DNA of 64,000 bases, taken from contig NZ_JAAMPU010000100.1 of assembly GCF_012911565.1 (NCBI RefSeq), positions 1 through 64,000 of the forward strand, given 5' to 3'. The translations under genes were made by a program, and so were the position numbers. Position 1 is the first letter of the stretch. Each line of letters opens with the position of its first letter. Positions 62,162-63,765 of the stretch are shown piece after piece. This DNA comes from Flavobacterium silvaticum (GTDB taxonomy: Bacteria > Bacteroidota > Bacteroidia > Flavobacteriales > Flavobacteriaceae). A model generated the notes under the pieces. The model was given only the letters and a program-made list of their open reading frames with translations, was not told where the DNA came from and did not search any database.

Positions 62162-62197
62162 ATTTCTGTAAATTTAGTGCCTAACTATCAGGTACAA

Positions 62198-62638
62198 ATG
62201 TCTTTATCTAATTTACGGGTGCTTTTGGCAGATGACGATGAGGATGATCGTCTTTTTTTCTGTGATGCTATTCGCGAAATTGATTCGTCTGTAGACATAA
62301 CCTCTGTTTCCGACGGACAACGGCTGATGGATTTTTTATCAGTTTCTTCGGTTTCACTTCCCGATATTTTGTTCCTTGATATGAACATGCCTTGTGAAAA
62401 TGGCAAAGAATGTCTTAAGGAAATTCGCGAAGCGGCCCATTTAAAAAACTTGGTCGTCATTATTTACTCTACTTCAGGAGACGAGAATCAGGTTGCCGAC
62501 GCATTTGCAATCGGAGCTAACGGATACATCAAAAAGCCAAATGATTTTTCTTCGTTGAAACAGGTCGTGGCAGAAATGCTTCTGATAAATTGGAAATCAT
62601 CCGTAAAAAGCCAGCCAAAAATCATCCGTCTCAATTAA
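62198..62638 (+). CDS. stand-alone receiver-domain response regulator
   Basis: A 146-residue CheY-like receiver with no output domain: acidic pocket LLADDDEDDRLFF, phospho-acceptor D61 (LPDILFLDMNMPCENGK), switch S/T (VIIYSTSG) and K in NGYIKKPNDF (about 113). It resembles the single-domain 'response regulator, rcp1-like' type. Start at ATG 62198; the GTG at 62177 is weaker. The AraC-type gene upstream and the stress genes downstream suggest a local regulatory unit. The cognate kinase is not nearby. Confidence 0.92.
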   Translation: MSLSNLRVLLADDDEDDRLFFCDAIREIDSSVDITSVSDGQRLMDFLSVSSVSLPDILFLDMNMPCENGKECLKEIREAAHLKNLVVIIYSTSGDENQVADAFAIGANGYIKKPNDFSSLKQVVAEMLLINWKSSVKSQPKIIRLN

Positions 62639-62650
62639 ACAAGCAAAAAG

Positions 62651-62711
62651 TCTGTAAGGATTATCAGATATCCTGTAACGGATAGCGATGCAAAGAATCC
62701 CAATTTTGTAA
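62651..62711 (+). promoter_or_regulatory. shared triple-TGTAA promoter, copy A (before lmo0937-like gene)
   Basis: TCTGTAAG (62651-62658), then 16 bases, GTAAC (62675-62679), 19 bases, CCCAATTTTGTAA (62699-62711). The TGTAA words start at 62653, 62674 and 62707 (spacing 21 and 33). Copy B at 63320-63380 has identical spacing. CAATTTTG may be the -7 region. The 16-base gap holds an imperfect palindrome GGATTATCAGATATCC. Confidence 0.65.
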
Positions 62712-62775
62712 AAGAAGCTGGTCGCGAATCCGGCTTCCAGAAACAACACATCAATAACTAAATACAAAATTCATC

Positions 62776-62934
62776 ATGGGAAATCTATTGTACACCATCG
62801 CCGTAATTCTTGTCATTATTTGGGCAATTAGTTTTTTAGGCGGATTTTACACCGGTGGAATAATCCACATTTTACTTGTCATTGCGATTATAGTTGTATT
62901 GCTCAGAATCATTCAGGGCAAAAAACCACTTTAA
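62776..62934 (+). CDS. Lmo0937 family small membrane protein
   Basis: A 52-residue protein with two hydrophobic helices (NLLYTIAVILVIIWAISFL and IIHILLVIAIIVVLLRII) and the tail QGKKPL. It matches, from memory, the Lmo0937 family of small stress-associated membrane proteins. It is too short for most ORF cut-offs. The YtxH gene follows 34 bases later, so they likely form one transcript from promoter copy A. Function unknown; general or envelope stress by family association. Confidence 0.85.
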   Translation: MGNLLYTIAVILVIIWAISFLGGFYTGGIIHILLVIAIIVVLLRIIQGKKPL

Positions 62935-62968
62935 AAAGAAACATTCATTAATTTAATTCATAGAAATC

Positions 62969-63244
62969 ATGAGCAATCAAAAAGCACTTATAGGCCTGTT
63001 TGCAGGAGTTGCGATAGGAGCAGCGTTAGGCGTACTTTTCGCACCGGATAAAGGAAGCGCAACCCGCAAAAAAATCAAAGACAAAGGCAACGATCTCAAA
63101 AACGACGTTACGAGCAAATACGATGATATTGTAAGTGCGGCACAAGACAAACTTGACGCTGTAAAATCTAAATTCAACGATTATACTGGAAAAGCTGAAC
63201 GTGCCGTGCAAAACGGGGCTGATGCTGTAAAACAATCGGTATAA
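62969..63244 (+). CDS. YtxH domain protein
   Basis: A 91-residue protein with the YtxH signature: LIGLFAGVAIGAALGVLFAPDKGSATRKKI (one hydrophobic segment, then LFAPxxGxxTRxxI). A lysine-rich helical tail follows (VTSKYDDIVSAAQDKLDAVKSKFND, TGKAERAVQNGADAVKQS). The family is a general-stress envelope protein of unknown activity. A terminator follows at 63266. It is the second gene of the cassette with the Lmo0937-type gene. Confidence 0.92.
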   Translation: MSNQKALIGLFAGVAIGAALGVLFAPDKGSATRKKIKDKGNDLKNDVTSKYDDIVSAAQDKLDAVKSKFNDYTGKAERAVQNGADAVKQSV

Positions 63245-63265
63245 CCACAAAGCAAAATCGGGAAG

Positions 63266-63292
63266 ACCTGTCAGCAATGTCAGGTTTTTTTA
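63266..63292 (+). terminator. terminator after ytxH
   Basis: Stem ACCTG / CAGGT, ten-base loop, followed by TTTTTT; 22 bases after the stop. Confidence 0.7.
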
Positions 63293-63319
63293 TGCAATAA
63301 AATTGTCCCAGTTTAAAAT

Positions 63320-63380
63320 TCTGTAAGCATTCAAAAGAATGGTGTAACAAATGTGAACGCCAATCGACCCATCTTTGTAA
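63320..63380 (+). promoter_or_regulatory. shared triple-TGTAA promoter, copy B (before candidate sRNA)
   Basis: TCTGTAAG (63320-63327), 16 bases, GTAAC (63344-63348), 19 bases, CCCATCTTTGTAA (63368-63380). TGTAA words at 63322, 63343 and 63376 repeat the 21/33 spacing of copy A exactly. The 16-base gap contains the hairpin CATTC / GAATG. No gene with its own start lies directly downstream. Confidence 0.65.
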
Positions 63381-63384
63381 TGTA

Positions 63385-63500
63385 GATCATCAATATCTCA
63401 AAGGGACTACAATAAATGTTTGTTTGGTTTTTGCTGAAGCGTTGTCACTCAAAACACGTTTCGCAAGTAAAAGCGGCCACTTCCTCAAGGCCGCTTTTTT
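63385..63500 (+). ncRNA. candidate small RNA (stress-cassette co-regulated)
   Basis: The stretch runs from the expected start of promoter copy B to a strong intrinsic terminator (63470-63500), giving about 115 nt. Both open frames through it (from 63416 and 63424) continue past the terminator into repeat DNA, so no small protein is supported. The RNA carries no known family motif that I recognise. The shared promoter with the Lmo0937/YtxH genes suggests co-regulation. It could also be a transcribed remnant. Confidence 0.45.
63470..63500 (+). terminator. strong intrinsic terminator
   Basis: Nine-base perfect stem AAAGCGGCC / GGCCGCTTT, loop ACTTCCTCAA, followed by TTTATTTT. Confidence 0.9.
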
Positions 63501-63515
63501 ATTTTGTAAGTTTTT

Positions 63516-63597: not shown

Positions 63598-63715
63598 CAT
63601 CGGGTTAAATAATTTAATTCAGAAGCATGTTCCGGCCGGCCGCTTCAAGTTGTTTTCCACGCTTTTGTTTTTAGTCGGTTTTGCAAGAGCTTCCGTTGGT
63701 CGCTTTGCAAAAGCC

Positions 63716-63765
63716 GCTAAAAACAAAAAGCCCGGTGCAACAAGCTTTGCGCTTGCGTCCGGGCT
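63716..63765 (-). terminator. terminator of the right-edge minus gene
   Basis: On the minus strand: stem AGCCCGG / CCGGGCT around a 23-base region that itself pairs (GCAAGCGCAAAGCTTGTTGC), followed by TTTTTGTTTTT. It starts about 20 bases after the stop of the 63786 gene. Confidence 0.75.

Follow-up and report, generated by a model that had tools for sequence, protein, structure and literature searches.

The intergenic sites A and B in the window, the whole stretch of 64,000 nucleotides from Flavobacterium silvaticum analysed here (contig NZ_JAAMPU010000100.1), are probably two instances of a promoter module that recurs throughout the Bacteroidota and is likely to be bound and activated by the AraC-type protein encoded beside them, with small stress proteins as the output of site A and a predicted small RNA as the output of site B. 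The argument starts from the recurrence of the module, its intergenic position, its distance to start codons, its linkage to a subfamily of AraC genes and the conservation of the RNA segment, and from these observations we infer how the module would work. The features concerned are collected in Table 1.

Table 1. Features in the region of sites A and B (positions in the window)
Feature	Position	Strand	Basis or remark
AraC-type regulator gene, 183 aa	61610..62161	+	N-terminal 1-63 HMA/Atx1-like, C-terminal AraC HTH
Lone receiver (response regulator that lacks an output domain)	62198..62638	+	Pfam Response_reg, E 3.2e-18
Site A distal box TGTAAG	62653..62658	+	pattern and R1 model; predicted -60 to -55
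Site A proximal box TGTAAC	62674..62679	+	pattern and R1 model; predicted -39 to -34
Site A putative -7 element CCCAATTTTG	62699..62708	+	pattern; -7 placement after the promoter passages of PMC9723704
Lmo0937-type membrane protein (DUF5670)	62776..62934	+	Pfam DUF5670, E 2.3e-11; first gene after site A
YtxH-like protein	62969..63244	+	Pfam YtxH, E 1.8e-19
Terminator-like hairpin and T run after YtxH	63266..63291	+	by eye; absent from the terminator scan
Site B distal box TGTAAG	63322..63327	+	pattern and R1 model
Site B proximal box TGTAAC	63343..63348	+	pattern and R1 model
Site B putative -7 element CCCATCTTTG	63368..63377	+	pattern and R1 model
Predicted small RNA	63382..63500	+	start inferred; conservation, folding, model R2

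The first-pass annotation had described two copies of a pattern with words spaced 21 and 33 bases apart, A at 62651-62711 and B at 63320-63380, and both copies are indeed present at these positions and with this spacing. The window contains two mismatch-free copies of the pattern TCTGTAAG-N16-GTAAC-N19-CCCAnnTTTGTAA and no more (none expected from 100 shuffles), and across the 107 contigs of the genome (3.77 Mb) it is found only at these two sites even with up to three mismatches, the backwards control giving none. In agreement with the annotation, the copies are not recent duplicates, because only 18 of the 48 bases outside the named words are common to both. When 150 of the 1232 candidates in the genome were scored with the phylum-wide model R1, copy B was the stronger match (38.5 bits, E 2.7e-9) and copy A the weaker one (26.9 bits, E 1.1e-5), and among the candidates scored these two were the sole clear matches. 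A simple promoter and terminator scan of the window was uninformative, with 8 promoter-like sites against 8.7 expected.

The next R1 match in the genome (C101:165902-165946) is weak, with an E value of 0.056, and lies 31 nt upstream of a DUF2383 gene. The exact motif is also found upstream of a DUF2383 gene in a Flavobacterium metagenome-assembled genome (L066), and the gene on C101 is a possible third member of the regulon in the genome.

The search of related genomes proposed earlier failed for the literal form of the pattern and succeeded for a refined one. With up to two mismatches the literal pattern gave one match in 100 other genomes of the genus, compared to two in the backwards control. 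The half-pattern TGTAAC-N14-24-CCCAnnTTTG, which matched in 159 of 398 genus genomes, was rejected as a specific motif since among the matches listed the gap takes many further lengths, at one of which a single sequence recurs. Eight loci were read in context, namely the single literal match and seven loci with a 19-base gap that were chosen by eye for window-like endings, other matches with this gap (for example G013, G136 and G273) being left aside. In all eight, TGTAAC is preceded at a distance of 21 bp by T[GA]TAA[CGT] or TGCAAC, and the genes that follow code, as judged by eye, for CsbD, Lmo0937, YtxH, Dps, ferritin or outer-membrane proteins. The refined pattern T[AG]TAA[CG]-N15-TGTAAC-N19-CCCAnnTTTG has 87 exact sites in 86 stretches among 84,980 species genomes, for which about 2 matches in 257 Gb would be expected by chance (an estimate by simple arithmetic with equal base frequencies rather than by a backwards control). 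Among the 80 titles listed, 78 belong to Bacteroidota, one to Ca. Kapaibacterium and one is given as "bacterium"; the groups represented include Flavobacterium, Chryseobacterium, Pontibacter, Chitinophaga, Saprospiraceae and Bacteroidales.

We take these 87 sites as real because they are intergenic and because their free columns are conserved. None of them lies inside an open reading frame of more than 100 aa, compared to 6209 of 8600 (72%) random 56-base positions from the same loci. An open reading frame follows within 500 nt of the TTTG at 82 sites, with the start codon at a median distance of 43 nt and at 17-80 nt in 65 of the 82; four of the remaining five sites are at most 320 bases away from the end of the stretch. 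The intergenic bias, the refined pattern and its co-occurrence with an AraC subfamily (see below) argue against a random frequency at the scale of the phylum, the finding which according to the first-pass annotation would have spoken against the motif.

In the alignment of the 87 sites the conserved free columns are GTGTGAAT-A before box 1, AA[AG]TT before box 2, ACTT after box 2 and CC between CCCA and TTTG. The seeds of R1 were picked by pattern, so that its fixed columns prove nothing alone. The seven columns before box 1 resemble those before box 2 at a shift of 21 bp (r 0.68), neighbouring shifts reaching at most 0.28. For the five columns after box 1 this shift is not favoured (r 0.67 at 21, 0.56 at 22, 0.69 at 23 and 0.49 at 24). 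As the 5′ flanks of both boxes agree at the 21-bp shift, the repeat unit would thus be about AATTATGTAAC, present twice and two helical turns apart, which supports the tandem sites suggested earlier. In 37 loci that were anchored on the AraC gene and not selected by pattern, a 15-base gap between the words is the commonest but accounts for only four cases, and the reversed-word control reaches three at one gap. The third TGTAA, formerly counted as a further binding word, dissolves into the TTTG of the -7 box and a loosely kept TA (65% T and 66% A in the phylum-wide alignment).

Class II activators such as AraC and MarA have their proximal operator at the position of the -35/-33 element. For mapped promoters of F. 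psychrophilum, the passages of PMC9723704 on promoter motifs put TAnnTTTG, the -7 box of sigma-A, between -12 and -5. On this scale CAnnTTTG would be a -7 box with the T changed to C, and with the -7 box at -12 to -5 the two boxes would come to lie at the positions given in Table 1, a geometry that would fit a class II activator-dependent promoter. Of the motifs SM1-SM6 of F. psychrophilum, SM1-3 are variants of TAnnTTTG and have the TTTG core in common with sites A and B; unlike these sites, the motifs have neither tandem boxes nor a CCCA element in the passages of PMC9723704 that deal with them.

The activation of the two sites had originally been ascribed to an activator or to an alternative sigma factor. 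The second possibility would turn the module into a promoter of the ECF type with TGTAAC as -35 and CCCAnC as -10 element, and TGTAAC does resemble the -35 elements of ECF promoters, whose spacing is also close to the one found here; in addition, two of the first genes appear ECF-sigma-like by eye (L044, L081). We nevertheless regard this as very unlikely. For a sigma factor the second TGTAAC with its matching 5′ flank 21 bp upstream would be superfluous, and the TTTG that is kept is the core of the sigma-A -7 box. According to the same part of PMC9723704, the ECF motif mapped in F. psychrophilum carries CGT at its -10 region, whereas this place is occupied by CCCAATTTTG in site A and by CCCATCTTTG in site B, and CC is the majority at the two free positions in the alignment.

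A further argument against an ECF promoter comes from sites in front of metal genes. Such genes follow at least 7 of the 28 sites of the phylum sample (loci L134-L161): HMA chaperones (L139 by Pfam, L143 and L144 by eye), HMA-containing P-type ATPases (L142 by Pfam, L150 by eye), a GMTCxxC protein (L151, by eye) and an RND efflux protein (L160, by Pfam). The seven sites were found with the R1 model, itself built on CCCA-pattern sites, and not with the exact CCCA pattern. All of them keep both boxes, none has CCCA, and three (L139, L143 and L151) have TAnnTTTG. Because both boxes are retained where CCCA is missing, they would belong to the activator from the AraC family, whereas the main sigma factor would account for the -7 place; CCCAnnTTTG would be the form associated with the stress genes. 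Of the earlier proposal the activator thus appears to stand; the conserved TTTG and the TAnnTTTG at three of the seven metal-gene sites make the alternative sigma factor the less probable of the two options.

The candidate activator, the protein encoded immediately upstream of the receiver gene, matches Pfam HTH_18 with 55.1 bits (cutoff 33.6), has the double HTH of the AraC/XylS family and resembles the structures 6swi, 3oio and MarA (1bl0). Its N-terminal residues 1-63 are modelled as beta-alpha-beta-beta-alpha-beta, that is with an HMA/Atx1-like fold. The Pfam HMA family (PF00403) matches neither this protein at E ≤ 0.001 nor the MVCNRC paralog in L139. Unlike HMA chaperones of the Atx1/HAH1 type, the protein of the window has only the second cysteine (Cys13) of the MxCxxC metal site, along with the lack of a Pfam HMA match; in 33 alignment rows Cys13 is invariant and the first cysteine is missing in 30. 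The AraC gene beside the site can be different: a full MVCxRC motif is found in it in the metal-gene loci L139, L144 and L150 and also in L152. This motif is not exclusive to the metal branch, as it is also present in three alignment rows from loci with non-metal first genes (L115 and two in L116). Together with the AraC paralogs that have MVCxRC, the metal-gene sites may form a branch of this AraC family that responds to copper. A second HMA-like AraC paralog is encoded in the F. silvaticum genome itself (G000:C107:31893-32447; 211 bits compared to 267 for the protein of the window).

The AraC subfamily and the sites go together in the phylum. At E ≤ 1e-4 model R1 has matches in 20 of 148 phylum genomes. 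The subfamily (E ≤ 1e-30) is present in 71 of the 148, including all 20 with sites, and none of the 77 genomes free of it has a site (Fisher 8e-8), while 51 of the 71 AraC-bearing genomes are without an R1 site at this threshold. The distance between site and subfamily gene is at most 1 kb for 10 of 42 sites (0.06 expected) and at most 5 kb for 17 (0.24 expected). Of the 86 loci with the refined pattern, 27 hold an open reading frame of the subfamily (33 in total, phmmer E < 1e-18), with about 0.15 expected at a rate taken from a search with another threshold. In nine loci, five of them from Pontibacter, ten sites start exactly four bases after the TGA of the AraC gene, so that GTGTGA is stop codon and motif at once. 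A site directly upstream of the subfamily gene is found in L046 (49 nt), L116 (17 nt) and G424 (155 nt); upstream of the window's own AraC gene there is no site with a PWM score of 8 or more. This co-occurrence and linkage speak for the adjoining AraC protein, already named as candidate in the first-pass annotation, as the most likely regulator of sites A and B.

Another regulator might bind the boxes, for example the AraC paralog on C107, a LytTR-type protein or an unlinked factor, and the linkage to the AraC gene would then reflect co-regulation only. LytTR-type regulators bind direct repeats about 21 bp apart, and 25 of the 42 sites are located more than 5 kb away from any subfamily gene; the second paralog in the genome would also be at hand for such a role. 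This reading appears improbable to us, as it is weakened by the absence of sites from all 77 subfamily-free genomes, the tight linkage in several lineages and the stop codon of the AraC gene that is part of the site.

The lone receiver gene, for which an alternative GTG start upstream at 62177 is possible, belongs to a conserved cluster. In all 12 relatives compared, the AraC gene is followed by a receiver gene (148-151 aa in ten of them, shorter in L207 and L208 as called) and by a third gene of 589-606 aa, which in G361, the one relative tested, codes for a CHASE3-PAS histidine kinase by Pfam. The nearest three relatives G361, G241 and G349, whose AraC proteins are 80-87% identical to that of the window, have after the kinase position a lipoprotein-like gene of 191-201 aa and then, by sequence likeness, the DUF5670 and YtxH genes. 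The lipoprotein-like gene of G361 is a DUF4142 gene by Pfam. Sites precede the lipoprotein gene in G241 and G349, with none above threshold there in G361, and precede the RNA segment in all three. In the window the kinase and the DUF4142-type lipoprotein genes of these relatives (L200-L202) are absent between 62638 and 62651, leaving a receiver without neighbouring kinase, and site A starts 14 bases after the receiver stop. A full-length ortholog of the kinase was not found in the F. silvaticum genome, the best matches covering the kinase core or residues 209-593 at 36-46%.

Site A lies 67 nt (from TTTG to ATG) upstream of the DUF5670 gene. Across the phylum, Pfam placed the first genes (82 scanned, 69 families) most often in CsbD (13), Ice_binding (6) and OMP_b-brl (5), followed by YceI and YtxH (3 each) and receivers and AraC (2 each), and Dps is also among the genes downstream of motif sites. 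Many of the first-gene families occur only once or twice, so that the term stress fits the recurring families alone. The general stress regulons of sigma-B and sigma-S have overlapping kinds of targets (CsbD, YtxH, Dps), whereas the genes here are preceded by an AraC-linked operator and a sigma-A-like -7 box. At five Pontibacter sites (L063, L072, L076, L091, L110) about 250-390 nt without clear open reading frame follow the site; these are possible leaders or RNAs, and no common terminator is evident in them by eye.

Downstream of site B the first-pass annotation had seen a gene-free terminated segment, and comparison with relatives suggests that this segment is a conserved RNA. In G361, G241 and G349 the sequence that follows the second site can be aligned with 63378-63505 of the window. 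The segment contains an invariant 23-nt block ATAAATGTTTGTTTGGTTTTTGC (63412-63434), a hairpin whose foot is invariant and whose upper part varies between the four sequences, and a terminator (63470-63500) with the invariant CTTCCTCA in the loop. The fold z-scores of the four sequences are -3.4 (window), -3.1, -2.7 and -1.8. Both modelled helices are invariant in the four genomes, so that pair counts give no support by covariation. Model R2 scored its own four seed sequences with 102.8-109.3 bits and the next match, among 37 sources, with 24.0 bits. R2 had two matches in 299 genus genomes, F. silvaticum itself and G241 (G349 and G361 appear outside this sample), and the exact RNA pattern was present in F. 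silvaticum only among 199 genomes. Rfam gave no match in the window at gathering score, the best sub-threshold E value being 0.43. Given two matches in 299 genus genomes and no match in Rfam, the segment, seen in four genomes only, is therefore best described as a lineage-specific predicted RNA. Between it and the next gene is an inverted repeat (63663-63728) with perfect 12-base arms starting at 63663 and 63717.

Site B could also be a leftover promoter with a terminator, or could serve a short peptide starting with MFVWFL, and drive no RNA at all. An ATG does open inside the conserved block, the first six codons are common to the four sequences, and the frames of G361 and G241 stay alike further on. 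Yet after MFVWFL the frames diverge between the window, the pair G361/G241 and G349, where the frame stops after nine residues; moreover, conservation reaches upstream of the ATG, and hairpin and terminator are present in all four sequences. We thus hold either variant to be unlikely and keep the small RNA as the predicted product of site B.

Taken together, we suggest that two units of the AraC protein bind in head-to-tail arrangement, one on each 21-bp repeat. With the -7 box at -12 to -5, the proximal box would adjoin the place of the missing -33 element, and for this reason RNA polymerase carrying the main sigma factor would need the bound AraC protein, as in class II activation. The signal might be received by the HMA-like domain and its invariant cysteine, by the pair of kinase and receiver seen in the cluster of the relatives, or by both. 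Site A would give DUF5670 and YtxH as small stress proteins, and site B the predicted small RNA. The kind of system, activation by an AraC-type protein on tandem sites, is known: AraC at araI1-I2 and MarA, SoxS and Rob at class II promoters of E. coli are likewise AraC/XylS activators on tandem sites. These proteins, however, have a sugar-binding N-terminal domain or none instead of an HMA-like one, and the system of the window differs further in the adjoining lone receiver, the CHASE3 kinase (in relatives) and the -7 box of the Bacteroidota. Earlier descriptions of this family, of its operator and regulon or of the RNA were not found in the library searched; in the open-access literature (titles and beginnings of abstracts, subscription papers and preprints being outside this scope) no paper about the motif or the regulon was found.

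Bacteroidota are not known to have sigma-B or sigma-S. We tentatively propose, as an idea that may well turn out otherwise, a stress regulon throughout the Bacteroidota without a stress sigma factor, in which an AraC protein with a metallochaperone-derived sensor, a detached receiver and a CHASE3 kinase would act through the 21-bp tandem boxes on CsbD, YtxH, Lmo0937, Dps and others, joined by a dedicated small RNA in one Flavobacterium lineage. For the control of stress in Bacteroidota the analysis names a candidate regulator and its putative target genes, provides a usable consensus for the operator and predicts a small RNA. In addition, the results suggest that one kind of operator may be used for metal genes and stress genes alike by AraC regulators whose N-terminal domain is metal-chaperone-like.
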